Assembly: GCF_003664255.1 (NCBI RefSeq)
Contig: NZ_RCCV01000001.1
Coordinates: 3,906,001 to 3,970,000, forward strand
DNA from: Micromonospora sp. M71_S20
GTDB taxonomy: Bacteria; Actinomycetota; Actinomycetes; Mycobacteriales; Micromonosporaceae
Direction of reading: 5' to 3'
Length of the DNA: 64,000 nt
The notes under the pieces are model-generated. The model made no database searches. It was not told where the DNA came from and was given only the letters and a program-made list of their open reading frames with translations. Below, piece after piece: positions 42,340-64,000 of the stretch. Both the position numbers and the translations under genes were made by a program. Numbering within the stretch: position 1 is the stretch's first letter; each line of letters begins with the position of its first letter.

Positions 42340-42999
42340 TCAGGGCTTGTCGCGTCCGGCCGCCCGTGCCATCAGGCGGGCGAGTTCCCGGTGGTGGCCG
42401 CAGTCGGTGGTCACGATGTCGGCCGCGACCCGATCGCGGACGTCCGGCGCCTGTTCCTGGCTCAGCTTGAACATCGCATCGACCCGGTCCACCCGCAGTT
42501 CGAACGCGCCTACACCGGGAAGCAGGCGATCGAAGTAGTCCAGCGACGCCGTCATGTCCCAGCCCGTGCCGTGCCGCTTCTCGAGGGCCTCCACGGTGGA
42601 CCGGATCACCGCCAGCGTCGGTTCGCCAGGCGGTAGCGGCGACAGCCAACCGTCGACGTGAACGGCGGTGAAGTTCCACGTCGGAGCCGCCGGGGTGACG
42701 CCGTAGACGGTGGGGGAGACGTAGCGGTCGGGCCCGGTGTAGACCAGCAGTGCCGGACAACCGGCCCCGATCGCCGCCCACTGTGGGTTCAGGCGGTTCA
42801 TGTGCCCCACGAGAATCGATTGCGAGTCCGCCGGGGCGGTGCCGTCGGCGCGCTCCGGGGCGGGTCGCCTGATGGTCGGCACATGGCTGGCCAGCGGTAC
42901 ACCATCGGTCGCGGTTATCAGCGTGGCCAGGGGATGGGAATCGATCAGCTCCCACGTCCAGGACGGATCTTCCGCCTGGTATTGTTCCGGAACGTACAT
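42340..42999 (-). CDS. ktzT: Piperazate synthase-like protein (KtzT / PaiB-type FMN_bind_2 fold)
   Basis: A 219-residue protein starting MYVPEQYQAEDPSWTWELI, the typical start of the PaiB-like FMN-binding-regulator family; PLATLITATDGVPLASHVP and YVSPTVYG also fit. This family name is historical: the kutzneride member KtzT is a heme enzyme that forms the N-N bond of L-piperazic acid from N5-hydroxyornithine. The ornithine N-hydroxylase in the same NRPS cluster makes that role much more likely than transcription control. The N-acetyl-type alternatives cannot be excluded without an alignment to KtzT. ATG 42999 has AGGAAT about six bases upstream; an in-frame extension to 43170 has no RBS and odd composition. 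Confidence 0.78.
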   Translation of the reverse strand: MYVPEQYQAEDPSWTWELIDSHPLATLITATDGVPLASHVPTIRRPAPERADGTAPADSQSILVGHMNRLNPQWAAIGAGCPALLVYTGPDRYVSPTVYGVTPAAPTWNFTAVHVDGWLSPLPPGEPTLAVIRSTVEALEKRHGTGWDMTASLDYFDRLLPGVGAFELRVDRVDAMFKLSQEQAPDVRDRVAADIVTTDCGHHRELARLMARAAGRDKP

Positions 43000-46752: not shown

Positions 46753-47712
46753 GGTTCAGAGGGTGGTTTCGCCGTTGAGGCCGAAGAAGTCGTGCCATTT
46801 GGTGCTGGGGTTGAAGGTGGTGCCGGTGGAGAGTCCGACGTAGACGTCGTTGGTGGTGCCTTTGGTGAAGACGATGATGTCGTCTTTGTTGTCGCCGTTG
46901 ACGTCGGCGAGGTAGGGGAATTCGCCGTTGAGGCAGAAGAAGTCGTGCCATTTGATGGTGGTGCCGGCGAAGGATGTGCCGGTGGAGGTGGCGGCGTAGA
47001 CGTCGGCGTTGGTGTTGCAGGTGAAGGTGACGATGTCGTCGCGGCCGTCGCCGTTGATGTCGCCGACGCGGGGTTGTTCGGTGCCGACGGCGAAGAGGTC
47101 GTGCCATTTTTGGGGTGGGCCGAAGGTGGTGCCGGTGGAGAGGGCGATGATGACGTCGGAGGCGGTGTTGGGGCCTTGGGTGAAGGTGATGATGTCGTCT
47201 TTGCCGTCGCCGTTGACGTCGCCGAGGGCGGGGTGTTCGCCGGGGATGGAGAAGTAGTCGTGCCACTTCACGGCGGTTCCGGTGAATGACGAGCCCGTGG
47301 AGAGTGCCACGTAGACGTCGGCGTTGGTGTCGTGGGTGAAGGTGATGATGTCGTCGCGGCCGTCGCCGTTGACGTCGCCGACTGCGGCGACTTCGTTGTG
47401 GGGGGCGAACCAGTCGTGCCATTTGGTGCTGGTGGTGAAGCCGGTGCCGGTGGAGAGTGAGACGTGGACGTCGGCGAGGGTGCCGTGGGTGAAGGCGACG
47501 ATGTCGTCGCGGTTGTCGCCGTTGAAGTCTCCGGTGAGCAGTGTTTCGCCGTTGAGGCCGAAGAAGTCGTTCCATTTGACGGAGGTGCCGGCGAAGTTGG
47601 TGCCGGTGGAGGTGGAGACGTAGACGTCGTTGAGGGTGCCCTGGGTGAAGGCGACGATGTCGTCGCGGCCGTCGCCGGTGAAGTCCGTCGGCGAACCCGC
47701 CAGATACCGGCC
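46753..47712. repeat. 960-bp near-identical block, copy 1 (partner 49451-50410)
   Basis: This block encodes the six FG-GAP/VCBS-like repeats of the M23 protein. It matches 49451-50410 with a single difference noted (G at 47179, A at 49877). Both ends of identity are sharp: just before the stop codon, and where the catalytic domain begins. Confidence 0.92.
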
Positions 47713-48276
47713 ACCCGTCGGCGACGTACCGCAGTTGTCGCTGACCAGGTACTTCTGGTGGTACTGGCCGGGATACGGCGCCAGCGACGTCCCGTTGATC
47801 ACGATCGTCTGTCCCACGCCGTTGTAGAGCTGTTCGTAGTGGATGTGCGGCCCCGACGAGTTGCCGGTGCTGCCCGTGGTGCCGATCTGCTGGCCCTGCT
47901 GCACGTACGCCCCGTCGGGCACGGAGTAGGTGCTGAGGTGGAAGTAGTAGGTGGTCCAACCGCCGCCGTGGTCGATGACGATGTAGTTGCCGGCGCCGCT
48001 GGGCTGCGAGTACCGCCGGGCGACGCCCGCCGCCGAGGCGACCTGTGGCGTGCCCGCGGTGGCACCTCCGTCGGCCCGCACGAAGTCCAGGGCCTGCCGG
48101 ACCTCGGCGCTGTGGTGGTCGTAGGTCCACCGCTGCCCGCACGGGAACGGGGCCTTGAAGTTCGGTGCGGCGAGCGCGGGGGACGATGTCGCCACCGCGC
48201 CGGTCAGGACGCCCACCGCCAGGGTGAGCAGGGCGGCCAGGACGCGACGCGCCCCGGTCCTCAAATGCCGTGACAT
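46756..48276 (-). CDS. Secreted M23 peptidase with six FG-GAP/VCBS-like repeats
   Basis: A 506-residue exported protein. Signal peptide ~1-36 (ends SPALAA). The M23/LytM-like domain (near 40-175) has GNYIVIDHGGGWTTYYFHL and the distal zinc motif SGPHIHYEQ. The proximal motif is irregular: HHSAEVRQALDF, with Arg where the H-x3-D His normally stands, so a histidine further upstream may serve. It would cut peptide cross-links in peptidoglycan. From ~190 on, six repeats of about 50 residues carry calcium-loop sequences such as DVNGDGRDDI and end KWHDFF. They probably form a beta-propeller that binds wall or sugar. It is the last gene of the minus-strand operon. ATG 48276 starts the signal peptide. 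Confidence 0.88.
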   Translation of the reverse strand: MSRHLRTGARRVLAALLTLAVGVLTGAVATSSPALAAPNFKAPFPCGQRWTYDHHSAEVRQALDFVRADGGATAGTPQVASAAGVARRYSQPSGAGNYIVIDHGGGWTTYYFHLSTYSVPDGAYVQQGQQIGTTGSTGNSSGPHIHYEQLYNGVGQTIVINGTSLAPYPGQYHQKYLVSDNCGTSPTGGRYLAGSPTDFTGDGRDDIVAFTQGTLNDVYVSTSTGTNFAGTSVKWNDFFGLNGETLLTGDFNGDNRDDIVAFTHGTLADVHVSLSTGTGFTTSTKWHDWFAPHNEVAAVGDVNGDGRDDIITFTHDTNADVYVALSTGSSFTGTAVKWHDYFSIPGEHPALGDVNGDGKDDIITFTQGPNTASDVIIALSTGTTFGPPQKWHDLFAVGTEQPRVGDINGDGRDDIVTFTCNTNADVYAATSTGTSFAGTTIKWHDFFCLNGEFPYLADVNGDNKDDIIVFTKGTTNDVYVGLSTGTTFNPSTKWHDFFGLNGETTL

Positions 48277-48382
48277 GGGGTGACTCCCGTCAGGGAAGGC
48301 TCGGATGGGCTGGGCGAGGTAACGACGACGCGCCGCCGGCCGCGACGGGTCTCCGCGGCGGCGGCGCGTCGTACGACGAGGG

Positions 48383-49378
48383 TCAGCCGGCGCGGCGCAG
48401 GCGTCCGAGCATCCCGTTGAGATCCTGGACGAAGATCTCGTGCCGGAAGTAGTGGCCGCCGGGGAGCTCGCGCCACTCGTGCGGAATGCCGGCCCGGCCC
48501 AGGGCCGCCCGGAATTCGCGCTGACCGGCCAGCACCTGCGTCTCGTTGACGTAGTCGAACCAGTTGATCGGGTCGGGCGAGGTGCCGGCGACCAGGAAGA
48601 TGCGCTTGTTGCGGTAGCTCTCGATGCGCTGGACCGGGTTGTCGGCGGTGACCCGCGCCTCGTCCCACAGCGGCGCGCCGTAGACGGTGCCGCCGCCGAG
48701 GTCCATCGCGGCCGAGGTGGTGTTGGCCCAGTGCACGACGAGGCCGAAGTCGCGGCGCAGGCTGGCCGGTCCGGAGTGGGAACTGACCGAGCAGAAGTGG
48801 CCGTAGTACTTCGCGGTGTACTTCAGGGCGCCGAACCCGCCCATCGAGAAGCCGGCGACGGCGCGGCCGTTGTACTCGGGGAAGGTGCGGAAGTTCGACT
48901 CGATCCAGGGCAGCAGCTGCGCGATGTGGAAGGTCTCCCAGTTGCGGGGACCGGTGTTGCTGTGGACCGGGTTCGAGTACCAGCCGGTGGAGGCGTCCGG
49001 CATGACGACGATGATCTCCCTGCCGGCGGTCAGGTTGATGATGTTGTCCTGCATGTGGAAGGTCCGGAAGTCGGCCGCCCCGCCGTGCAGCAGGTACAGC
49101 ACCGGGTAGCGCTTGCCGCTGGTGTGGTAGCCGTCGGGCAGCAGGACGTTGACCGCCGGGTCCCACTCGATGGCATCGGTGGCGAACCGGTAGTACTGCA
49201 GGCGGCCACCGTTCTCGTTGCGGTCGACGATGCGCAGGCCGTGGCCGTCGCGGGCTGCGGACGCGGGCAGCGGTGCGGCGAGGGCGCCGGCGAACGTGCC
49301 GGCGGCGGCGACTCCCGCGGCGCCGGTCAGGAGCCGTCGACGGCTGACGGGCCGGCGGGCGGCAGGGGTGTTGTCCAT
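48383..49378 (-). CDS. Tat-exported esterase, esterase-D/antigen-85 fold
   Basis: A 331-residue alpha/beta hydrolase of the PF00756 group, which includes S-formylglutathione hydrolase, feruloyl esterases and the mycolyltransferase antigen 85. A twin-arginine signal (SRRRLLTGAAGVAAAG, near 11-26) ends near ASAA (~43). VLYLLHGG (near 83), the nucleophile elbow AGFSMGGFGALK (near 178) and GGHYFRHE (near 310) give serine, oxyanion hole and histidine. ATG 49378 follows GGAGG at four bases; ATG 49402 is possible. Surrounded by peptidoglycan hydrolases, a cell-envelope ester (mycolate or acetyl) is a reasonable but unproven substrate. It is the only operon member without the repeat domain. Confidence 0.85.
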   Translation of the reverse strand: MDNTPAARRPVSRRRLLTGAAGVAAAGTFAGALAAPLPASAARDGHGLRIVDRNENGGRLQYYRFATDAIEWDPAVNVLLPDGYHTSGKRYPVLYLLHGGAADFRTFHMQDNIINLTAGREIIVVMPDASTGWYSNPVHSNTGPRNWETFHIAQLLPWIESNFRTFPEYNGRAVAGFSMGGFGALKYTAKYYGHFCSVSSHSGPASLRRDFGLVVHWANTTSAAMDLGGGTVYGAPLWDEARVTADNPVQRIESYRNKRIFLVAGTSPDPINWFDYVNETQVLAGQREFRAALGRAGIPHEWRELPGGHYFRHEIFVQDLNGMLGRLRRAG

Positions 49379-49450
49379 GGATCCTCCATCGGGTGAAGCC
49401 ACGCCGGGCGGACGAGAACTGTGGCGCGGAGCTTGCTGTCTACGCGGGAC

Positions 49451-50410
49451 GGTTCAGAGGGTGGTTTCGCCGTTGAGGCCGAAGAAGTCGTGCCATTTGG
49501 TGCTGGGGTTGAAGGTGGTGCCGGTGGAGAGTCCGACGTAGACGTCGTTGGTGGTGCCTTTGGTGAAGACGATGATGTCGTCTTTGTTGTCGCCGTTGAC
49601 GTCGGCGAGGTAGGGGAATTCGCCGTTGAGGCAGAAGAAGTCGTGCCATTTGATGGTGGTGCCGGCGAAGGATGTGCCGGTGGAGGTGGCGGCGTAGACG
49701 TCGGCGTTGGTGTTGCAGGTGAAGGTGACGATGTCGTCGCGGCCGTCGCCGTTGATGTCGCCGACGCGGGGTTGTTCGGTGCCGACGGCGAAGAGGTCGT
49801 GCCATTTTTGGGGTGGGCCGAAGGTGGTGCCGGTGGAGAGGGCGATGATGACGTCGGAGGCGGTGTTGGGGCCTTGAGTGAAGGTGATGATGTCGTCTTT
49901 GCCGTCGCCGTTGACGTCGCCGAGGGCGGGGTGTTCGCCGGGGATGGAGAAGTAGTCGTGCCACTTCACGGCGGTTCCGGTGAATGACGAGCCCGTGGAG
50001 AGTGCCACGTAGACGTCGGCGTTGGTGTCGTGGGTGAAGGTGATGATGTCGTCGCGGCCGTCGCCGTTGACGTCGCCGACTGCGGCGACTTCGTTGTGGG
50101 GGGCGAACCAGTCGTGCCATTTGGTGCTGGTGGTGAAGCCGGTGCCGGTGGAGAGTGAGACGTGGACGTCGGCGAGGGTGCCGTGGGTGAAGGCGACGAT
50201 GTCGTCGCGGTTGTCGCCGTTGAAGTCTCCGGTGAGCAGTGTTTCGCCGTTGAGGCCGAAGAAGTCGTTCCATTTGACGGAGGTGCCGGCGAAGTTGGTG
50301 CCGGTGGAGGTGGAGACGTAGACGTCGTTGAGGGTGCCCTGGGTGAAGGCGACGATGTCGTCGCGGCCGTCGCCGGTGAAGTCCGTCGGCGAACCCGCCA
50401 GATACCGGCC
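49451..50410. repeat. 960-bp near-identical block, copy 2
   Basis: Second copy of 46753-47712, forming the C-terminal repeat domain of the amidase. A third, diverged version of the same domain lies at 51541-52490. Confidence 0.92.
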
Positions 50411-51520
50411 GCCGGAGCCGCCACCGGCGTTGACCAGCGAGATGTAGTGGTTCCAGTTCCAGTGGGGACCGGGATCGGTGTGGTCGTTGCCCGGCAGCTC
50501 GTGGTGGCCCCTGATGGCGGTGCGGTTCTTCGGCAGGCCGTACTTGTCGCAGAGGTAGCGGGTCAGCGCGGCCGACGAGCGGTACATGGACTCGGTGAAC
50601 CAGCTCGGGTTGTCGACGTAGCCCTCGTGCTCGATGCCCACCGAGTACGGGTTGGCCGACCGCGCGTGGTAGGCGGTGTCGCCCTCGCGCACCATCTGGG
50701 TGATCTCGCCGTTGCTCGACTTCACCACGTAGTGCGCGCTCACTCCCGCCGACGGGTTCTGGAACCAGCTCACCGTGCCGGCGTACGAGCCCTGGGTCAC
50801 GTGCACCACGACCGTGGTGATCCGCGAGGAGCGACCCGCCGCGTAGTTGCCGCCGTACGCCGAGATCCACCGGGCCGGCGCGTACTCCGGCACCGCCGCG
50901 GCGAGGGCGGCCGGTGCGGCCGTCCCGGCGGGGGCGACGCGGGCGTAGCGGCCGAGTTCCGGCTGCACCCGCCGGGGCGCGACCCGCACGGAGGCCGCGG
51001 TGATGCCGTCGCGCAGGAGGTCGTAGACGTGGTCGGCGTACAGGCGGGCCGTCGCGTCGTCGGCGGCGTGCGCGTACCGCGCGACCACCGGATACCAGGC
51101 GGAGAGCCGGTCCCGGTCGGCGGCCGTGAGCCGCTCGGCGTCGGCGATGTCCCGCAGGAGGGCCGCGCCACCCCTGATGTTGGCCGAGGTCACCGACTTC
51201 AGGGCGGCCACCGGCTGCCCGGTAAGCTCGGCCGCCCGCTCCAGGCTGCGCTGCCGGGGATTGCTGACCAGGTGCATGACGCCGTAGCCGTTGGCCTGGC
51301 TGGGCCGCCCCTCGTGCCCGTCGAGCCGGGTCTCGCCGTAGCCGACGGCGACCAGCAGGTCCCTGGGCACGTCGAACTCGCCGGCCGCCCGGGTGAAGGC
51401 CGTGTCCAGCGGACCGGTGGGCCCGGCCGGTGCGGCGGTGGCCGGCGCGACGGGGCTCAGTAGCGCCGCCGCGAGGACGGCGGCGGCGCCCCCGCGCCAG
51501 GAGAGTCTGCTGGGTCTCAT
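49454..51520 (-). CDS. Secreted N-acetylmuramoyl-L-alanine amidase fused to lysozyme-like and repeat domains
   Basis: A 688-residue exported protein. Signal peptide ~1-29 (ends ATAA). The next ~160 residues contain DVPRDLLVAVGYGETRLDGHEG and GYGVMHLVSNP, which look like a lysozyme/transglycosylase-type domain with Glu in YGETR as candidate acid. Residues ~220-370 are an Amidase_2/PGRP domain with zinc ligands in VVVHVTQG, GHHELPG and HTDPGPHW, plus the catalytic-type YSVGIEHEG. The last ~320 residues are six FG-GAP/VCBS-like repeats, identical in protein sequence to those of the M23 protein. It would cleave the stem peptide from muramic acid. ATG 51520 follows GGGAG; it is only 20 bases after the upstream gene, so they are co-transcribed. 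Confidence 0.9.
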   Translation of the reverse strand: MRPSRLSWRGGAAAVLAAALLSPVAPATAAPAGPTGPLDTAFTRAAGEFDVPRDLLVAVGYGETRLDGHEGRPSQANGYGVMHLVSNPRQRSLERAAELTGQPVAALKSVTSANIRGGAALLRDIADAERLTAADRDRLSAWYPVVARYAHAADDATARLYADHVYDLLRDGITAASVRVAPRRVQPELGRYARVAPAGTAAPAALAAAVPEYAPARWISAYGGNYAAGRSSRITTVVVHVTQGSYAGTVSWFQNPSAGVSAHYVVKSSNGEITQMVREGDTAYHARSANPYSVGIEHEGYVDNPSWFTESMYRSSAALTRYLCDKYGLPKNRTAIRGHHELPGNDHTDPGPHWNWNHYISLVNAGGGSGGRYLAGSPTDFTGDGRDDIVAFTQGTLNDVYVSTSTGTNFAGTSVKWNDFFGLNGETLLTGDFNGDNRDDIVAFTHGTLADVHVSLSTGTGFTTSTKWHDWFAPHNEVAAVGDVNGDGRDDIITFTHDTNADVYVALSTGSSFTGTAVKWHDYFSIPGEHPALGDVNGDGKDDIITFTQGPNTASDVIIALSTGTTFGPPQKWHDLFAVGTEQPRVGDINGDGRDDIVTFTCNTNADVYAATSTGTSFAGTTIKWHDFFCLNGEFPYLADVNGDNKDDIIVFTKGTTNDVYVGLSTGTTFNPSTKWHDFFGLNGETTL

Positions 51521-51540
51521 GGTGGTCTCCCGTCCGCGGG

Positions 51541-52992
51541 TCACAGGGTGGTCTCGCCGTTGAGGCCGAAGAAGTCGTGCCACTTGGCGCTGGCGCCGAA
51601 GCCGGTGCCGGTGGAGAGTCCGACGTAGACGTCGTTCGTGGCGCCCTTGGTGAAGACGACGATGTCGTCCTTGCCGTCGCCGTTGACGTCGGCGAGGTAG
51701 GGGAACTCGCCGGCGAGGCAGAAGAAGTCGTTCCACTTGACGGTGGTGCCGGCGAACGACGTGCCGGTGGAGGTGGCGGCGTAGACGTCGGCGTTGGCGT
51801 CGCAGGTGAAGGTGACGATGTCGTCGCGGCCGTCGCCGTCGACGTCGCCGACGCGGGGCAGTTCGGCGCCCACGGCGAACAGGTCGTGCCACTTCCGGGA
51901 GGCGCCGAAGGCGCTGCCGGTGGAGAGGGCGACGATGACGTCGGAGGCGGTGTTGGGGCCCTGGGTGAAGGTGATGATGTCGTCGCGGCCGTCGCCGTCG
52001 ACGTCGCCCAGGGCCGGGTACTCGCCGGCGATGGAGAAGTACTCGTGCCACTTCACGGCGGTTCCGGCGAACGAGGACCCGGTGGACAGCGCCACGTACA
52101 CGTCGCCGGCCGCGTTGTGGGTGAAGGCGACGATGTCGGCGCGGCCGTCGCCGTTGACGTCGCCGACCGCGCCGATCTCCGCGCCGGGGGCGAACCAGTC
52201 GTGCCACTTCTGGCCGCCGCCGAAGCTGGTGCCGTTCGACAGCGCCACGTACACGTCGCCGGTGTTGCCGTGCGCGAAGGTGACGACGTCGTCCCTGCCG
52301 TCGCCGTCGACGTCGCCGGTCGAGGCCGTCTCGCCGCCGATGGAGAAGAAGTCGTTCCACTTCACCGAGGTTCCGGCGAAGCCCGCGCCCGTGGACGTGC
52401 TGACGTAGACGTCGGCGAGGGCGTTCTGGGTGAAGCTGACGATGTCGTCGCGCCCGTCGCCGCTGACGTCGGTGGCGGACCCGCCGGCGATGGCGTGGGT
52501 CCGTACCGCCTCGTTGAGCAGGGTCCGCGCCTTGGTCGCCACCTGGTCGTAGCGGTCGGGGAAGCCGGAGCGCTGCACACACTGGGCGACCTGACCGGCG
52601 GTGTAGCGGGGGTTGTTCCGGTCGCAGACGATCGCGCGGGTGATGTACTGCGTGCTGGCGTAGACCGGGTCCATGATCTGCTCCGGCGTGCCCCAGCCGT
52701 AGTCCCACCGTTGCTGGAAGACCCCGAGCGAGGACTTGTCGCCGCACGGCAGGTTGTTCATGTGCGACTCGACCCAGCCGGCCTCGAACGCGGACAGCAT
52801 GACCTTGTCGTTGACGTTGTGGGCACGGGCGACCCGGTAGACGATCACGCTGATCGCGGGGTCGTGGTTGGCGGGGATGGAGGAACAGGCCAGCGTGCCG
52901 ATCGGAGCGTCGGCCTGCGCCGGCGCGGTCGCCACGACCGACGCGAGCGCGGTGCAGAGGCCGACCAGCAGGGCGAGGGGGGTACGTCTCAC
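51541..52992 (-). CDS. Secreted lysozyme/transglycosylase-like protein with FG-GAP/VCBS-like repeats
   Basis: A 483-residue exported protein, first gene of the minus-strand operon. Signal peptide ~1-28 (ends AQA). Residues ~35-165 show [16 protein letters not shown] and [23 protein letters not shown], the pattern of small actinobacterial lysozyme-like domains in which the Glu in VES is the candidate catalytic acid. Six FG-GAP/VCBS-like repeats follow with calcium loops such as [10 protein letters not shown]. They are the same family as in the next two repeat genes but with C-rich codons and more divergence. GTG 52992 has GAGGAG about five bases upstream. Its promoter with operator is at 53114-53159. 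Confidence 0.82.
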
Positions 52993-53005
52993 GATGCTCC
53001 TCTGA

Positions 53006-56562
<3,557 letters not shown>

Positions 56563-56563
<1 letters not shown>

Positions 56564-58686
56564 TGCGCGCGCCCCGGATGCTCGCGGTGCTCCTGCTCGC
56601 CGCCGCCCTGGTGACCGTCCCGGCCGGACCGGCCGCCGCGGAGGACGTCGTACGGGCCGAGGCGGAGTCGCTGGCGGTGACCTCGTCCACCGCCCCGGTC
56701 GAGGCGCAGGCCAACTGCTGCGGGGTCGCCTGGTCGGCCGGCCGCCAGCTGTGGCTGCGCGCCGCCCGGGCGGGGGACTCGGTCACCGTGTCGCTGCCGC
56801 CCGTGCCGGCCGGGCAGTACGACATCGGCGGCGTGCTCACCCGCGCCGCCGACTACGGCACCCTGCGCTTCGCCGTCGACGGCGTGGCCGTCGGTCAACT
56901 CTTCGACGGCTACGCCCCGACCGTCCGGCGCGTCGAGGCCGTACCGCTGGGGTCGGCCTCGCTCACCGCCGGCACCCACCGGCTGACGGTGACCGCGACC
57001 GGCCGCTCGGCGTCCTCGACCGGCTTCTTCGCCGGCCTGGACACGGTCACCCTGCGCCGCGTCGGCCCGCTGGCGGCGGTCACCACCACGCCGTACGAGA
57101 CGGTGGCCGAGACGCCGGCGCGGGGGCCGCTGACCCGGGTCTACGACCCGGGCGTGGGGGAGCCGACGGCGTGGTACTACAACGACCACACGATCGTGCG
57201 CGACCAGCGGACCGGGCTGTGGCACGCCTTCGCCATCGCCCACGCGGAGCCCGGCGCGCCCCAGGACGAGAAGAGCTTCGGCCACGCCACGGCGCCCACG
57301 CCCACCGGGCCGTGGACGAAGCAACGACCGGCGCTGACGGCCGACCCGGCGAGGGGTGAACAGTGGATCTGGGCGCCCCACGTCGTCTACGACCAGGGCG
57401 TCTACCACATGTTCTACGCCGCCGGCAGCCCCGACTACGCGAACTACCGCATGCACCTGGCCACCTCGACCGACCTGTTCACCTGGACCCGCAGCCCGGC
57501 CAACCCGCTGTTCACCGACGGCTGGGAGGGGCGCGACCCGATGGTGACCCGGGTCGGCGACCGCTGGGTCATGTACTACACGGCGACCTCCGACCCGCAG
57601 GGCGGCAACCACGTGGTCGCCTACCGCACCAGCACCGACCTGCGGACCTGGAGCGGCCGGGGCGTCGCGTACGCGTCGCCGCACACCGGCCGGGCCGCGG
57701 GGCAGACGGAGTCGCCGTTCGTGGTGCGCCGGGGGGACTGGTGGTACCTCTTCGTCTGCTGCGACGGCACCGACTACGGCGCGGCGTACCGGCGCACCGC
57801 CGTCTACCGCAGCCGCGACCCCCTGCGCTTCGACGGGGCGGAGAAGGTGACCGTGCTCGACGCGCACGCCGCGGAGGTCGTGGTGGACGGGGGGAACTGG
57901 TACCTGAGCCACGCCGGCTGGGGCCAGGGCGGGCTGTGGCTCGCCCCGCTGACCTGGTCCACTCAGGTCGTCGCCCGCGGCTACCAGGTGAGCACCGGAT
58001 TCCTGCGCGCCGACGTGCGCACCTGGCCGCACACCCGGATCGCGTCCCTGGCGGTCGACCCGGCCGGCGGCGGGGCGTACCGGCCGGCGCTGGACTCGTC
58101 GCACCGGGGGACCGGGCCCTACCTGGCGGTCGGCCGCTTCGATGTCACGGACCGGGCGGGTCCGCCGGCCCGGGTGGACGTCTCCGCCGACGGTTCCCGG
58201 ATCAACCTGGTCGGCATGCGGATGGGCGACGAGCCGGTCACCGCCGACTGGCTGCTGACGGTGGCGCCGCGCTGGACCGGGCCGGCGTTGCAGAGCGACG
58301 TCACCTGGTCGGTGACCGGCCCGACGACCGCGCCGGTGTGGGAGGTGGCGTTCAACGTCGACGGTGCCCTGCCGGCGGTCGGTGATCCCGCCGTGGCGGC
58401 CCGGCCGAGCGGGGACGTGCCGGGGATGCCGACGTGGTCGATGACCTCCGGTGCGGGTCTGTCCCTCGTGGCCGCGCACCGCTGGGCCTCGGCGTGGCGC
58501 GGCGACAACACCTGGTACGACGCCGGCCACGCGATGGCGGCCTGGCAGCCGCTGTGGCGCAACGGGGGCACCGCGTGGCCGGCGGGGTCTTACCCGGGCG
58601 GGACGTGGCGGTTCGCCGCCAGCGGGACGGCGCGGGACACCGCGTTCGCCGAGAACGTCCACGCCGCCGTCAACGCCGTGCCGTGA
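56563..58686 (+). CDS. Secreted GH43/GH32-like beta-propeller glycosidase
   Basis: A 707-residue exported protein. Signal peptide ~1-26 (ends AAAE). Residues ~27-165 form a beta-sandwich likely to bind carbohydrate. From ~185 there is a five-bladed-propeller pattern typical of clans F/J: WYYNDHTIV with candidate Asp near 207, IWAPHVVYDQG (near 270), EGRDPMVTRVGDRWVMYYT (near 323-341) with Asp, and QTESPFVVRRGDWWYLF (near 385-401) with Glu. These match the three acidic residues of GH43/GH32 enzymes. The C-terminal part, near 500-700, resembles the GH32-type beta-sandwich. Substrate candidates are arabinofuranosyl, galactofuranosyl or fructosyl linkages. It is coupled to the GH172 gene, which suggests successive action on one glycan. 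Confidence 0.8.
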
Positions 58687-58695
58687 GGGGCCGTA

Positions 58696-58731
58696 CCGGT
58701 GCGGGTCGGGCGGTGGCCCGGCCCGCACCGG
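58696..58731 (+). terminator. Terminator after the GH43-like gene
   Basis: A 16-bp stem (58696-58711 with 58716-58731, one G-U pair) with a 4-base loop begins ten bases after the stop. It ends just before the -35 of the importer operon, separating the two units. Confidence 0.75.
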
Positions 58732-58736
58732 GGGCC

Positions 58737-58783
58737 TTGACAGCAATTAGACACTCCTCTATGTTTCGCCAGAAATCGATTTC
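58737..58783 (+). promoter_or_regulatory. Promoter and operator of the sugar importer operon
   Basis: TTGACA (58737-58742), a 17-base spacer and TATGTT (58760-58765) form a strong sigma70-type promoter. A perfect palindrome GAAATCGATTTC (58772-58783) sits on the expected start site, the same geometry as at the two divergent promoters near 53114 and 53242. A LacI-family repressor released by an imported sugar is the simplest model. Confidence 0.8.
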
Positions 58784-58804
58784 CGATCCCCCTCGGAGGC
58801 CCGC

Positions 58805-60367
58805 ATGAGCGACCAGGTGATCGTCGCCATGTCCGGCATCGCCAAGCGCTTCGGCGGCGTGCACGCCCTGCGCGGCGTCGACCTCACCCTGCGCGCCGGC
58901 GAGGTGCACGCCCTGCTGGGGGAGAATGGGGCCGGCAAGTCGACCCTGATCAACATCCTCTCCGGCGTCGTCACCGACTACGACGGGGAGATCTCGATCG
59001 GCGGTGCGCCCACGCGCTTCGCCGGCCCGGCCGCCGCCCAGGCCGCCGGCATCGCCACCATCCACCAGGAACTCGACCTGGTGCCCGCGCTCTCCGTGGC
59101 CGAGAACCTCGTGCTCGGCCGGGAACCGCGCACCCGGCTGCGGATGCTCGACCGGCGGGCGATGACCCGCGCCGCCCGGGACTGGCTGGGCCCGCTCGGC
59201 GCGCAGATCGATCCGCGCCGGCCCGTCGGTTCGCTGCGCGTCGGCGAGCAGCAACTCGTCGAGATCGCCAAGGCGCTCTCCCTCGACGCCCGCGTGCTCA
59301 TCATGGACGAGCCGACCGCCGCGCTCGCCGACGCCGAAGTGCGGCGGCTGATGTCCACCATCCGCGCGCTGCGCGAGCGCGGCGTGGCCGTCGTCTACAT
59401 CTCCCACCGGCTCGAGGAGATCGAGCACATCGCCGACCGGGCCACCGTTCTGCGCAACGGCGAGGTGGCCGGCACGCTGCGCCCGGACCGCGCCGACCGG
59501 CAGAAGATCATCACGCTGATGGTCGGCCGCCCGGTGGAGACGCTGTTCGGCGCGGGATCCGGCGGTGCCGCCCCGGCGAGCCCCGCCGGGCCGGCCGTGC
59601 TGGAGGTCGACGACCTCGCCGTACGGCCCCGAGGCACCCGGCCCGGGCGCTGCGAACCCGCCGGCGTCAGCCTGACCGTCCGCGCCGGGGAGATCGTCGG
59701 CCTGGCCGGCCTGATGGGGGCGGGCCGCACCGAGCTGCTGGAGACCCTGTACGGCGCCGGCCCGCCCGGTCGCCGCAGCGGCCTGGTCCGGCTCGCCGGC
59801 CGCCCGTACGCCCCGCGGGGCCCCCGGTCCGCGCTGCGCGCCGGCGTCGGCTTCGTGCCGGAGGACCGCCGCCGCTCCGCCCTGGTGCTGGAACATCCCG
59901 TCGGCCGCAGCATCGTGCTGGCCGCCCTGCGCCGGCTCAGCACCGCCGGAATCGTCCGCAACGGACGCGAGCGGGACGCGGTGCGCCAGCAGGTCGCCGC
60001 CCTGGCGATCAAGACGTCGTCGGCCGCCGCGCCGGTCGGCTCGCTCTCCGGCGGCAACCAGCAGAAAGTCGTCTTCGCCCGGCACCTGCTCACCCGCCCC
60101 CGCCTGCTGCTGCTCGACGAGCCGACCCGCGGGGTCGACGTCGGCGCCAAGGCGGAGATCTACCGGCTGCTGCGCCGGCTCGCCGACGACGGGATGGGCA
60201 TCCTGCTCGCCTCGTCGGAGCTGCCCGAGCTGACCGGCGTCTGCGACCGGATCGTGGTCCTGCGGCGCGGGCGGGCCGTCGCGGAACTCCCGGCAGACGG
60301 GTGCACCGGCGAGGACATCCTGACCGCGGCCATGGGCGGCACGGCCGCCGGAAGGGACGACCGATGA
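58805..60367 (+). CDS. Sugar ABC importer, tandem ATPase subunit (RbsA/MglA type)
   Basis: A 520-residue protein with two fused ABC domains, as in ribose, galactose and related monosaccharide importers. The first has the Walker A GENGAGKST (near 39-47) and DEPTAALADAEV (near 166). The second has the modified GLMGAGRTELLE (near 302), LSGGNQQKVV (near 415-424) and LLLDEPTRGVDVG (near 435-447). It would power uptake of a pentose or hexose at the inner face of the membrane. ATG 58805 follows CGGAGG. It is the first gene of the importer operon; its stop overlaps the permease start (ATGA). Confidence 0.95.
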   Translation: MSDQVIVAMSGIAKRFGGVHALRGVDLTLRAGEVHALLGENGAGKSTLINILSGVVTDYDGEISIGGAPTRFAGPAAAQAAGIATIHQELDLVPALSVAENLVLGREPRTRLRMLDRRAMTRAARDWLGPLGAQIDPRRPVGSLRVGEQQLVEIAKALSLDARVLIMDEPTAALADAEVRRLMSTIRALRERGVAVVYISHRLEEIEHIADRATVLRNGEVAGTLRPDRADRQKIITLMVGRPVETLFGAGSGGAAPASPAGPAVLEVDDLAVRPRGTRPGRCEPAGVSLTVRAGEIVGLAGLMGAGRTELLETLYGAGPPGRRSGLVRLAGRPYAPRGPRSALRAGVGFVPEDRRRSALVLEHPVGRSIVLAALRRLSTAGIVRNGRERDAVRQQVAALAIKTSSAAAPVGSLSGGNQQKVVFARHLLTRPRLLLLDEPTRGVDVGAKAEIYRLLRRLADDGMGILLASSELPELTGVCDRIVVLRRGRAVAELPADGCTGEDILTAAMGGTAAGRDDR

Positions 60368-61446
60368 CCCACCTGCGCGCACCGGACCAGGGGCCCGGCA
60401 CGCCGCTCGCCCCGGCCGGCGGCGGCCCGGCGGCCGGCGCCGGCCGGTGGCGGCGGCCCGGCGGCCGGGGCGACCTCGTCGAGCGGCTCTTCGCCGTGCA
60501 GAGCCTCTTCGCGCTGCTGCTGGTGTTCGTGCTGGCCATCGCCGTGTCGCCCCGCCGCAACGGCGAGATCCTGTTCCTGTCCACGGAGAACCTCGGCAAC
60601 ATCGTCCGCGCGGTGTCCGAGATCGGGATCATCGCCATCGGCATGACGTTCGTCGTCCTGCTCGGCGGCATCGACCTCTCCGTCGGCGCCATCCTCGGCC
60701 TGTCCGCCGTCGGCACCGCGACGCTGATGGTCGACTCCGGGCTCGGCATCCTGCCCGCGGTCACCGTCGTCCTGCTTATCGGCGCCCTCTTCGGTGCGTT
60801 GCAGGGCTACGCGACGGCCCGGCTCGGCATCCAGTCGTTCATCGTCACCCTCGCGGGACTCCAGGTCGCGCGCGGTCTCGCCCGGATCTGGTCGGGCGGG
60901 CTCGGCATCCCGATCGCCTACGGCGACGGCCCGCAGGAGGCGCCCCCGGCGTTCGAGATCCTCAACGGCACCGTCAACGGGGTGCTGCCCGTGCCGGCGG
61001 TGCTGTTCATCGGCATCGGCGTGGCCGCGATCGTCGTGCTGCGCAAGACGGCGTTCGCCCGCCACGTCTACGCCATCGGCGGCAACGAGAAGGCCGCCCG
61101 GCTCTCGGGCGTGCCCGTGCTGCGGGTGAAGGTCGCGGTCTTCGCGATCGCGGGCCTGCTCGCCGCGGTGGCCGGCATCATCCACGCCGGACAGCTCAAC
61201 CAGGGCAGCCCCAACGACGGCGCCGGCTACGAACTGGACGCCATCGCCGCGGTGGTCATCGGCGGCACCAGCCTGGCCGGGGGCACCGGCTCGATGGGCG
61301 GCACGCTCGCCGGGGCGCTGCTGCTCGGCATCCTCAACAACATCCTCGCGCTCAACAACATCGACGCCAACGTGCAGCTACTGATCAAGGGACTGGTGAT
61401 CGTGGCCGCCGCCGGGCTGCAGAAGCTACGCCGCAGCATCGTCTGA
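60364..61446 (+). CDS. Sugar ABC importer permease (RbsC type)
   Basis: A 360-residue membrane protein with about nine hydrophobic segments after a ~40-residue Pro/Gly/Arg-rich N-terminus. GIDLSVGAILGL (near 100-111), GGNEKAARLSGV (near 239-250) and the C-terminal GGTSLAGGTGSMGGTLAGALLLG (two parts near 300-322) are typical of the RbsC/BPD_transp_2 group. It forms the membrane channel with the RbsA-type ATPase. ATG 60364 overlaps the previous stop. Confidence 0.95.
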   Translation: MTHLRAPDQGPGTPLAPAGGGPAAGAGRWRRPGGRGDLVERLFAVQSLFALLLVFVLAIAVSPRRNGEILFLSTENLGNIVRAVSEIGIIAIGMTFVVLLGGIDLSVGAILGLSAVGTATLMVDSGLGILPAVTVVLLIGALFGALQGYATARLGIQSFIVTLAGLQVARGLARIWSGGLGIPIAYGDGPQEAPPAFEILNGTVNGVLPVPAVLFIGIGVAAIVVLRKTAFARHVYAIGGNEKAARLSGVPVLRVKVAVFAIAGLLAAVAGIIHAGQLNQGSPNDGAGYELDAIAAVVIGGTSLAGGTGSMGGTLAGALLLGILNNILALNNIDANVQLLIKGLVIVAAAGLQKLRRSIV

Positions 61447-61472
61447 ACCGCCACCGAACAAGGAGCGTCATC

Positions 61473-62474
61473 ATGCGCACCCGTACCGTCCTGCTCGCGC
61501 TGCTGTGCACCGGCGCGCTCGTCAGCTCCACCGCGTGCAGCGTGGAGAAGCCGTCCGACAGCGGCGACGCCGCGGCCGCGAACTGCGGCGCCGGCAAGGA
61601 TTTCCTCATCGGCATGTCGCAGGCCAACAACGCCGAGCCCTACCGGCAGGTCATGAACAACGACGTGCAGACGGCGGCGAAGTCCGTCCCCGGGTTCAGC
61701 GTGGTGGTCTCCGACGCGGCGCAGGACAACAGCAAGCAGGTCGCCGACGTGGAGAACTTCCTCACCCAGAAGATCGACCTGCTGATCATCTCGCCGAACG
61801 AGGCCAAGCCGCTGACCGCGGTGGTGCGCAAGGCGTACGACCGGGGCGTCCCGGTGATCGTGCTCGACCGCAAGGTGGAGGGCGAGGCGTACACGGCCTT
61901 CATCGGCGGGGACAACGTCGCCATCGGCAGGGCCGCCGGCGAGTTCTACGCCAGGACGCTGCTGCCCGCCGGCGGCAAGGTCATCGAGATCGCCGGGCTG
62001 CCCGGCTCCACGCCGGCGGCCGAACGCGCCCAGGGCTTCCGGGAGGGCATCGCGGGCAACCCGAAGATCGAGGTCGTCGCCTCCCAGCCCGGGGACTGGC
62101 TGCGGGAGAAGGGCCAGTCGGTGGCCGACGCGCTGCTCAAGGCGCACCCGGACGCCGCCGCCGTCTACGCCCACAACGACCCGATGGCCGAGGGCGCGTA
62201 CCTGGCCGCGAAGGCGGCCGGGTTGCACACGAAGGTGAAGTTCACCGGCATCGACGCGCTGCCGGTGCCGTCGGGCGGCATCAAGGCCGTCGAGCAGGGC
62301 CGGCTCGCGGCGACCTTCCAGTACGCCACGGGCGGCCGGGAGGCCGTCGACCTCGCCCGCCGGATCCTGGTCGACTGCGACAAGGACGTCCCGCGTGCCA
62401 CCACCCTCGACACGATGCAGATCACCAGGGAGAACGCCGCCGAGACGTACGCGAAGCTCGGTGGCGTCGCCTGA
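61473..62474 (+). CDS. Sugar-binding lipoprotein of the ABC importer (RbsB type)
   Basis: A 333-residue periplasmic-binding-protein-like lipoprotein. The signal ends in a lipobox-like SSTAC with the acylated Cys near residue 22. The mature part is a type 1 sugar-binding fold: FLIGMSQANNAEPYRQVM, LLIISPNEAKPLTAVV, GVPVIVLDRKV, and VYAHNDPMAEGAYLAA. It would capture the sugar released by the secreted glycosidases and hand it to the permease. ATG 61473 has AGGAG seven bases upstream; the gap from the permease is 26 bases. The ligand cannot be named from sequence. Confidence 0.94.
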   Translation: MRTRTVLLALLCTGALVSSTACSVEKPSDSGDAAAANCGAGKDFLIGMSQANNAEPYRQVMNNDVQTAAKSVPGFSVVVSDAAQDNSKQVADVENFLTQKIDLLIISPNEAKPLTAVVRKAYDRGVPVIVLDRKVEGEAYTAFIGGDNVAIGRAAGEFYARTLLPAGGKVIEIAGLPGSTPAAERAQGFREGIAGNPKIEVVASQPGDWLREKGQSVADALLKAHPDAAAVYAHNDPMAEGAYLAAKAAGLHTKVKFTGIDALPVPSGGIKAVEQGRLAATFQYATGGREAVDLARRILVDCDKDVPRATTLDTMQITRENAAETYAKLGGVA

Positions 62475-62537
62475 CCGCCGAGCCGGCACGGGCCCACGGG
62501 CCACGACCCGGACCTGGAAGATCGGGGGAGACCTGGC

Positions 62538-64000
62538 ATGACGGTGGCCGCGGTGCTCGGAGTCGACATCGGCACGTCCAGCAGCAAGGGCGTCCTGGTC
62601 GACCTGTCCGGGTGCGTGCTGCGCTCCGCGGTGCGGGAGCACCGGGTGGACCGGCCGCGACCCGGCTGGGTGGAGATGGACGGCCGCATCTGGTGGAACG
62701 AGTTCGTCGCCCTCACCCGTGAGCTGCTCGCCCCCGGCGACGCCCACGTGGTGTCGGTCGGGGTCAGCGGCATGGGGCCGTGCGTGCTGCTCACCGACGC
62801 CGCCGGCACACCCCTGCGGCCGGCCATCCTCTACGGCGTCGACACCCGCTCCACGCCGCAGATCGCCCGGCTCACCGAGCGCTTCGGAGCGGACGAGATC
62901 CTGCGCCGGTGCGGCTCGACGCTGTCGACCCAGGCGGCGGGGGCGAAGGTCGCCTGGGTCGCCGACGCCGAGCCGGAGCTGTTCTCCCGGGCCCGGCGGC
63001 TGTTCATGCCGAGCTCCTGGCTGGTCTTCCGGCTGACCGGCCGGTACCTGCTCGACCAGCACTCGGCCAGCCAGTGCACGCCGCTGTACGACAGCGCGGC
63101 GCAGGACTGGTACCGCCCCTGGGCCGACGAGATCGCCCCGGGGCTGGAGCTGCCCGAGCTGCGGTGGCCCGGCGACGTGGCCGGCACGGTCACCGCCGGG
63201 GCCGCCGCGGCCACCGGGCTGCCGGCCGGCACCCCGGTCGTGACCGGGACGATCGACGCCTGGTCGGAGGCGGTCAGCGTGGGCGCCCAGGGCGTCGGCG
63301 ACCTGATGCTCATGTACGGCACCACGATGTTCCTCGTGCACACGGTGCCGCACCGGCTGACCAGCCCGTCGCTGTGGGGCACGGTCGGCGCGCTGCCGGG
63401 CACCCGCAACCTGGCCGGCGGCATGGCGACCTCCGGGGCGATCACCGGATGGCTGCGGGAGCTGTTCGACGCCGCCGACTACCCCGAGCTGCTGCGCCTG
63501 GCCGAGCTGTCCGGGCCGGGCGCGCGGGGGCTGCTCATGCTGCCGTTCTTCGCCGGCGAGCGGACCCCCATCCTCGATCCCGACGCCCGGGGCGTGATCG
63601 CCGGCCTGACGCTCTCGCACGGGCGCGGCGACATCTACCGCGCGGCGCTGGAGGCGACCGGGCTGGCGGTGCGCCACAACATCGAGACGATCGAGGCGGC
63701 CGGCGGCGACATCCGGCGCGTCGTGGCGGTGGGCGGCGGCACCCGGGGCAGCCTCTGGACGCAGATCGTCTCGGACGTCACCGGCCGGGCGCAGCACATC
63801 CCGTCGGTCACCATCGGCGCGAGCTACGGCGCCGCGTTCCTCGCCGCCGGCGCCGTGCGGCGGGTCGACATCCACCGGTGGAACCCGGTCCGGGAGGTCC
63901 GCGAGCCGCGCCCGGCCCTCGCCGCCGACTACGCGGAGCTGTACGGGCTGTACCGGCAGCTGTACGCCGGCTCGAAATCCGTCGCCCACGCGTTGGCCGC
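62538..64000 (+). CDS. FGGY-family sugar kinase, C-terminally truncated by the window
   Basis: The reading frame is open from ATG 62538 to the window end (487 codons visible). FGGY hallmarks are present: phosphate loop GVDIGTSSSKGVLVD (near 8-22), GVSGMGPCVLLTD (near 73-85), candidate catalytic Asp in GTIDAWSEAVSVG (near 236-248), and AVGGGTRGSLWTQIVSDVTGR (near 396-416). It resembles xylulokinase/ribulokinase-type enzymes; the exact sugar is uncertain. Its place after the importer indicates that it phosphorylates the incoming sugar or its keto isomer. GGGGGAG lies about nine bases upstream of the start. Confidence 0.92.
   Translation, partial: MTVAAVLGVDIGTSSSKGVLVDLSGCVLRSAVREHRVDRPRPGWVEMDGRIWWNEFVALTRELLAPGDAHVVSVGVSGMGPCVLLTDAAGTPLRPAILYGVDTRSTPQIARLTERFGADEILRRCGSTLSTQAAGAKVAWVADAEPELFSRARRLFMPSSWLVFRLTGRYLLDQHSASQCTPLYDSAAQDWYRPWADEIAPGLELPELRWPGDVAGTVTAGAAAATGLPAGTPVVTGTIDAWSEAVSVGAQGVGDLMLMYGTTMFLVHTVPHRLTSPSLWGTVGALPGTRNLAGGMATSGAITGWLRELFDAADYPELLRLAELSGPGARGLLMLPFFAGERTPILDPDARGVIAGLTLSHGRGDIYRAALEATGLAVRHNIETIEAAGGDIRRVVAVGGGTRGSLWTQIVSDVTGRAQHIPSVTIGASYGAAFLAAGAVRRVDIHRWNPVREVREPRPALAADYAELYGLYRQLYAGSKSVAHALA

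Follow-up and report, generated by a model that had tools for sequence, protein, structure and literature searches.

A 64,000-nucleotide stretch of the Micromonospora sp. M71_S20 genome (contig NZ_RCCV01000001.1, positions 3,906,001 to 3,970,000; hereafter, the window) carries, from position 46,756 to its end, a locus in which genes for wall hydrolases face genes for furanosidase-like enzymes, a sugar importer, and a sugar kinase. We consider it likely that this locus is an inducible regulon for dismantling foreign cell walls that bear D-arabinan, such as those of mycobacteria, corynebacteria, rhodococci, and their kin, and for using the D-arabinose. This reading is built on the gene content of the locus, the distribution of a putative operator, a propeller domain that is confined to the locus in its own genome, and the recurrence of the arrangement in relatives. 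An earlier sequence-only reading had proposed that the locus strips mycolate, arabinan, and peptidoglycan from actinobacterial walls and imports the pentose, in predation or scavenging. The regulon, the D-arabinan signature, and the genes for pentose import and use were retained here, but mycolate stripping and the label "lysozyme-like" were not supported.

Gene content of the locus

Gene models and family searches agreed on the gene set and coordinates of the sequence-only reading, including the RbsABC importer and the sugar kinase. Four genes for proteins with predicted secretion lie on the minus strand. The first (51541-52992) encodes a protein with an N-terminus of lysozyme-like appearance (unproven) and an FG-GAP propeller (E-value of 5e-25). 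It is followed by an N-acetylmuramoyl-L-alanine amidase with a propeller and an unrecognized N-terminal part of ~200 residues (49454-51520; Amidase_2, 5e-32; FG-GAP, 1e-24), a PF00756 esterase with a twin-arginine translocation (Tat)-like signal and no propeller (48383-49378; 1.9e-46), and an M23 endopeptidase with a propeller (46756-48264; PF01551, 9e-22; FG-GAP, 3e-25), whose signal was recognized by inspection. Because these genes are closely spaced, with gaps of 20, 75, and 118 bp, they may form one transcript.

Across a divergent region of 295 bp, the plus strand carries the gene for a secreted GH172 (DUF2961) protein with a weak fn3-like region and a propeller (53288-56563; PF11175, 5e-63), a candidate exo-alpha-D-arabinofuranosidase. 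Next comes a secreted protein that combines a binding domain with a five-bladed GH43/GH32-like domain, a furanosidase candidate (56563-58686; PF04616, 2.6e-13; PF00251, 7e-8). The same strand continues with an RbsA-type sugar ATP-binding cassette (ABC) ATPase (58805-60367; family search), an RbsC-type permease (60364-61446; PF02653, 5e-40), an RbsB-type lipoprotein with a lipobox seen by inspection (61473-62474; PF13407, 2e-50), and an FGGY pentulose kinase candidate that runs past the window end (62538-64000; PF00370/PF02782). Just beyond the window end, a fucose-isomerase-family gene is followed by a LacI repressor gene on the opposite strand.

A putative operator links the wall-enzyme genes with GH172 and the importer

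A core sequence, AATCGATT, lies within a longer palindrome common to the divergent region and the upstream sequences of the RbsA and LacI genes. Seven copies of the core were found in the 7.8-Mb genome, four of them within 13.8 kb at the locus (Poisson probability of ~1e-9, for a region chosen after the sites were seen). Of the three copies elsewhere, one lies in a coding frame at window position 42814, and two lie elsewhere with no visible link. The 12-mer GMAATCGATTKC occurs exactly three times in the whole genome, always at the locus: as GAAATCGATTGC at 53114-53125, ~120 bp upstream of the lysozyme-like gene and thus of the wall-enzyme operon; as GCAATCGATTTC at 53242-53253, ~35 bp upstream of the GH172 gene; and as GAAATCGATTTC at 58772-58783, ~20 bp upstream of the RbsA gene (no strand is assigned to these putative sites). 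The fourth core site of the locus stands before the LacI gene. The locus has both sequence features of a LacI-family regulon, a LacI gene and a common palindromic operator before its units.

We counted the core within 300 bp upstream of genes in 85 related loci, leaving out genes that start less than 60 bases from a locus end. It was present before 33 of 75 GH172 genes, 17 of 36 LacI genes, 5 of 9 lysozyme-like genes, 7 of 27 kinases, 6 of 36 RbsA genes, 3 of 6 GH116 genes, 2 of 8 M23 genes, and 1 of 17 isomerases, and before 35 of 877 other genes. No core was found in the same distance before RbsB (0/32), RbsC (0/30), GH43-like (0/22), amidase (0/6), or GH183 (0/2) genes, classes that are mostly internal to gene rows. 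All loci are related, and at least two repeat the same genome stretch (L036/L046 and L037/L045), so that P-values are indicative only.

In a set of 37 genomes from the genus that includes the host, the 12-mer was present in all nine genomes with a long GH172 and in 5 of the 28 others. Twelve regions around 12-mer sites were fetched, and regulon genes were found in seven of them; further sites, e.g., in G005:C163, G068, G067, G078, and G083, the second site of G071, and one each of G022 and G027, lie outside the examined regions. In genome G016, a site lies between an M23 gene and a lysozyme-like/amidase gene, both with propellers, ~320 and ~450 bp from their starts; a second site marks the start of a kinase-isomerase pair on another contig, whereas a third contig carries GH172. 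In G027, a site ~130 bp before the esterase and an M23 gene with propeller is on a contig other than that of GH172. Asanoa, Dactylosporangium, Catellatospora, and G019 likewise have sites that precede an M23 or lysozyme-like gene. The 12-mer of G003 and G005 lies between gene ends, and a core site precedes LacI there. These distributions support an operator-defined regulon that would join the wall-enzyme operon, GH172, and the importer. The sequence-only reading depended on such co-regulation: the wall-enzyme operon of the host does bear the operator of the importer, but many congeners are without a good site before the corresponding gene.

A protein of M. yasonensis (L057 3-2294; 763 residues, end cut) carries the propeller and has the operator 37 bp upstream, and its pre-repeat part matches no Pfam family. 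It is a candidate for a further wall-glycan enzyme.

In its own genome, the propeller is confined to four proteins of the locus

When the repeat region of the lysozyme-like protein was compared with the whole genome, only the M23, amidase, lysozyme-like, and GH172 proteins matched at E <= 1e-5; a search at E <= 1e-30 agreed. The repeat shared by four proteins, pointed out in the sequence-only reading, thus goes beyond chance. The M23 (46756-47715) and amidase (49454-50413) genes have 960 bp of propeller DNA in common with two mismatches (99.8% identity). The corresponding pair in G019 is 99% identical over 321 residues, yet each of the two proteins is only ~80% identical to its counterpart here. 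Because copies within a species are nearly identical while identity between species is ~80%, the pattern points to homogenization by gene conversion within each species.

The single fold model of the lysozyme-like protein was of low confidence (predicted local distance difference test [pLDDT] of 60), with a strand-rich repeat region. In a search against solved structures, the locus repeats matched chain 8w20_C of an umbrella toxin particle (E = 7e-9), presumably UmbA1. Lectins with a propeller fold are part of UmbA proteins (PMC11062931), and the propeller of UmbA4 binds the wall polymer of a competitor (PMC13274773). The likeness of the locus repeats to these Streptomyces lectins lies in weak sequence similarity; unlike the lectins as described in those sources, the propeller here is fused to hydrolases and is not part of a toxin particle. 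The propeller may bind D-arabinan or the wall.

In the related loci, wall hydrolases (M23, lysozyme-like, or amidase relatives) stood beside GH172 in 10 of 15 propeller-type loci and in none of 46 others; these 61 loci exclude 7 of 68 without a GH172 gene call (L099, L104-L108, and L111). In Actinophytocola gossypii, GH172, M23, lysozyme-like, and amidase genes lie side by side and all encode the propeller, and in Streptomyces lycii, a propeller-bearing GH183 adjoins a propeller-bearing GH172. A short frame of Catellatospora tritici (L053 19956-20615), apparently truncated, combines a partial match to GH183 with propeller-like sequence after it.

Gene context points to D-arabinan as the probable substrate

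The DUF2961 domain of the GH172 protein scored 213 bits against a curated cut-off of 27. Its residues Glu423 and Glu444 are 21 positions apart, as are Glu270 and Glu291, the catalytic pair of alphaFFase1, and a Glu pair at a spacing of 20-22 was present in 61 of 61 GH172 gene calls of related loci. The family includes D-arabinofuranosidases (PMC10115798, PMC10509167), and alphaFFase1, an alpha-D-fructofuranosidase, also accepts alpha-D-arabinofuranosides (PMC8605356). The two activities cannot be told apart by similarity to solved members of the family. Relatives of this GH172 (51-54% identity) are also encoded in Mycobacterium species (L058-L064), with no wall-hydrolase, importer, or isomerase neighbors in the stretch covered.

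A D-arabinan locus is recognized by GH172 together with a sugar importer, an isomerase, and a kinase, and all four were present, the isomerase with a borderline match. The solved relatives of the RbsB protein include 2x7x, the best match, a fructose-binding protein named a sensor protein, and ribose-binding proteins. The FGGY kinase fell below every NCBIfam equivalog cut-off. Relatives of the isomerase are named fucose isomerase in public records, and a fucose-isomerase-type step converts D-arabinose to D-ribulose. D-Ribulose-5-phosphate is the proposed end product of D-arabinose use (PMC10509167), and in Dysgonomonas gadei grown on D-arabinan, fucose isomerase was the most abundant carbohydrate-active enzyme (PMC10115798). 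In G010, which is without GH172, three operators stand before a kinase-isomerase pair, before a FucU homolog (37% identity to Escherichia coli FucU) with an ABC importer, and before LacI. For the catabolic genes of the present locus, D-arabinose is a better fit than fructose or L-arabinose, with the isomerase match at the borderline.

Enzymes linked to the regulon in relatives add to this picture. GH116 adjoins it in several of them, and the GH116 of L028 matched an exo-beta-D-arabinofuranosidase at 3e-70 and beta-glucosidases at 8e-19. In our reading of the alignment, the His recognized in ExoMA2 aligns, and the position of Arg483 is not Arg (numbering of PMC10509167). The GH183 of S. lycii is closest to an endo-alpha-D-arabinanase (2e-107). 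Because of the fucose-isomerase-type enzyme with the FGGY kinase, the linked GH116, and the propeller-bearing GH183 beside GH172 in Streptomyces, D-arabinan is favored over fructan or plant arabinan as the predicted substrate; enzymes acting only on these two would have told against the sequence-only reading, and the gene context speaks for D-arabinan. Separately, a GH183 gene of the host (L043 9425-10606) has an 86% ortholog in G011 (L172) directly beside an M23 gene with propeller and an esterase.

The second glycosidase-like protein was modeled with a pLDDT of 89.4. Its top fold match was the endo-levanase BT1760, and MiXBM was also among the matches. The model suggests a MiXBM-like binding domain, a five-bladed catalytic domain of the GH32/43 type, and a strand-rich C-terminal part. 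Across 34 sequences, N207-D208-H209, R324-D325-P326, and E383-S384 were invariant. D-Fructofuranose and D-arabinofuranose have the same ring configuration, which makes action on D-arabinofuranose plausible for a GH32-like enzyme. It is a guess, with about even chances, that this protein is a beta-D-arabinofuranosidase or an endo-D-arabinanase. In several Kribbella and Isoptericola loci (L066, L068, L074, L076, and L102), GH172 and a GH43/32-like domain are fused in one polypeptide.

Wall hydrolases and esterase

AmpD is among the solved relatives of the amidase. For the N-terminus of the lysozyme-like protein, and likewise for that of the amidase, proposed as a further lysozyme-like domain, no Pfam family and no solved-structure match was found; the label goes back to appearance, and we use it as a name only. 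The esterase had been described as having an antigen-85 fold. This holds at the level of PF00756, but among solved proteins, feruloyl esterases and other esterases come closest to it, and the mycolyltransferase Cmt1 ranks lower. Cleavage of mycolyl esters by this enzyme would be a guess. Its ortholog in G027 (89% identity) has the operator upstream. G015 carries a 73% relative directly after a lysozyme-like protein with LGFP repeats in place of the propeller; LGFP repeats occur in corynebacterial wall proteins. In loci L178 and L179, LGFP-bearing lysozyme-like relatives adjoin PF00756 esterases, and the second also has a weak NlpC/P60 match; with LGFP repeats in place of the propeller, the presumed targeting module appears to have been exchanged.

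Weighing the evidence

Several results weigh against a D-arabinan wall regulon. Five of the 12 fetched 12-mer regions had no regulon gene. The lysozyme-like gene is present in 11 genomes of the genus (nine near full length, two partial), and an exact operator within 420 bp upstream was found in two (own and G019) and a site with one mismatch in one (G004); the best sites had two mismatches in G034 and G028 and three or more in the remaining six. Among these six, the exact site of G016 is more distant, and the lysozyme-like gene of G033 directly follows GH172 and the GH43-like gene. Common control of the wall enzymes is thus clear in some of the species, with no visible sign of it in the rest. 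Five of the 15 propeller-type GH172 loci, and the propeller-type loci L038 and L039 of G040 likewise, were without wall hydrolases in the stretch covered. The isomerase reached 29.6 bits for Fucose_iso_C against a cut-off of 29.3, matched no solved structure at E <= 0.01, and gave no match to E. coli FucI in profile comparison (probability of 1.4%). GH116 (PF04685) was not found in the host genome, and GH183 is not in the cluster: the one full gene is ~160 kb away and has no operator-like site upstream (best, five mismatches), and one further match is partial, weak, and below the cut-off. Since GH183 is missing in cis and GH116 from the genome, the usual D-arabinan enzyme set is incomplete, unless the GH43/GH32-like protein fills the gap. 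The intergenic regions of the M23/esterase/GH183 group of G011 also carry no operator (best, four mismatches). Finally, the alphaFFase1 operon of Bifidobacterium dentium resembles the locus in combining GH172, GH32, and LacI (PMC8605356).

This operon brings up the use of fructan or difructose anhydride, with GH172 as an alpha-D-fructofuranosidase, the GH32-like protein as a levanase or inulinase, and RbsABC as a fructose importer. The founding GH172 member acts on alpha-D-fructofuranosides, and the endo-levanase fold matches and the closeness of RbsB to 2x7x point the same way. Fructose, however, requires neither a fucose-type isomerase nor an FGGY kinase, the regulon-linked GH116 and GH183 of relatives are closest to D-arabinanases, and levan is not a wall polymer, which leaves an amidase and an M23 peptidase with the same propeller unexplained. 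We regard fructan use as unlikely. Plant L-arabinan or arabinogalactan-protein could be suggested by the weak match of the GH43/GH32-like protein to GH43 L-arabinanases and by below-cut-off matches of the kinase to L-ribulokinase models. It is highly improbable: the scanned proteins matched neither an L-arabinose isomerase nor a ribulose-phosphate epimerase family, the peptidoglycan hydrolases would be unexplained, and the assayed GH172 enzymes act on D-arabinofuranosides (PMC10115798).

The target might also be the producer's own wall, with the hydrolases acting as autolysins in the turnover and recycling of its arabinose polymer. Micromonospora wall hydrolysates contain arabinose, and mycobacteria, besides their GH172 relatives, carry GH183 enzymes (PMC10115798). 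But no Emb arabinosyltransferase turned up in any of 25 genomes of the genus, the host among them, and no AftA in the host genome, in searches that had Corynebacterium glutamicum as a positive control; other arabinosyltransferases were not searched for. The long GH172 is present in 9 of 37 genomes, a patchy occurrence that differs from a genus-wide wall trait, and pentose catabolism under apparent LacI control is a better fit to feeding. Own-wall recycling therefore seems improbable; with no Emb or AftA found in the host and GH172 patchy in the genus, the target wall is probably foreign. Somewhat better placed, though still not likely, is the view that wall hydrolases and a D-arabinose operon are separately regulated neighbors and that the operators in the divergent region serve GH172 only. 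Both sites lie in that one region here, and most of the congeners examined have no site, or a weak one, ahead of their lysozyme-like genes. Joint control is favored by the sites next to wall hydrolases that are not linked to GH172 (L147 and L150) and by those ahead of M23 or lysozyme-like genes in four relatives, Asanoa, Dactylosporangium, Catellatospora, and G019.

Neighboring regions

The window has a GC content of 72%. Upstream of the locus, at 18151-42171, large multi-domain genes resemble, by inspection, a nonribosomal peptide synthetase-type cluster. Just past the window end (L026 4105-9920), two DUF4127 proteins flank a secreted-looking protein of 530 residues without a Pfam family; this group, near a second LacI-type regulator, is a separate locus.

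A model for the regulon and its relation to known systems

In our model of a D-arabinan wall regulon, the LacI-type repressor would sit on the operators in the divergent region and before the RbsA gene until D-arabinose or a derivative appears. On induction, the amidase, M23 peptidase, lysozyme-like protein, and esterase would be made and secreted from one side, and GH172 and the GH32/43-like furanosidase from the other. The propeller, present in four of these six enzymes, would serve as a lectin that keeps the enzymes for peptidoglycan and those for arabinan attached to one wall polymer. Free D-arabinose would be taken up by RbsABC, converted to D-ribulose by the fucose-isomerase-family enzyme, and then phosphorylated to D-ribulose-5-phosphate by the FGGY kinase.

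The D-arabinan locus of Microbacterium arabinogalactanolyticum likewise has GH172, an ABC importer, an isomerase, and a kinase, and among its genes are several inducible by D-arabinose and by an extract of mycobacterial walls (PMC10509167). There, GH183 endo-enzymes are secreted, GH172 and GH116 have no signal sequences, and the importer is of the SBP_bac_8 type; the present locus has a secreted GH172 with a propeller, an RbsABC importer, no GH183 or GH116 in cis, and added peptidoglycan hydrolases and an esterase. PUL42 of D. gadei is a polysaccharide utilization locus of a Bacteroidete with DUF4185/GH183, and the available text mentions no wall hydrolases (PMC10115798). The B. dentium operon stands in a fructan-type context, and the corresponding portion of its source names no isomerase, FGGY kinase, or wall hydrolases (PMC8605356). 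Among the matches listed in the open-licence PubMed Central (PMC) literature (titles and starts of abstracts), no description of such a combined regulon was found. With its core of GH172, importer, isomerase, kinase, and regulator, the locus probably works as a D-arabinan utilization locus, without two usual components, GH183 and GH116 in cis. What is new is the joint operator with peptidoglycan hydrolases, the common propeller, the secreted GH172 with a monosaccharide-type importer, and the GH43/GH32-like protein.

We tentatively extend this to a broader proposal, which may well not hold in full: in Micromonosporaceae and some other actinomycetes, one repressor-controlled secreted system would attack the whole arabinogalactan-peptidoglycan layer of mycolic-acid prey, a D-arabinan-binding propeller, kept partly identical by gene conversion, would be placed on layer-specific hydrolases, and the GH43/GH32-like protein would represent an uncharacterized D-furanosidase family replacing GH116 or GH183. 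Known D-arabinan loci account for the sugar part of the mycobacterial wall only. Peptidoglycan hydrolases that apparently belong to the same regulon and carry the same propeller as the arabinan enzyme suggest a way in which such walls may be opened whole by a soil bacterium. The locus supplies enzymes that can be assayed, a possible wall-binding lectin, and a promoter that may respond to D-arabinose, and it makes directly testable which organisms prey on or recycle mycolic-acid bacteria in soil.

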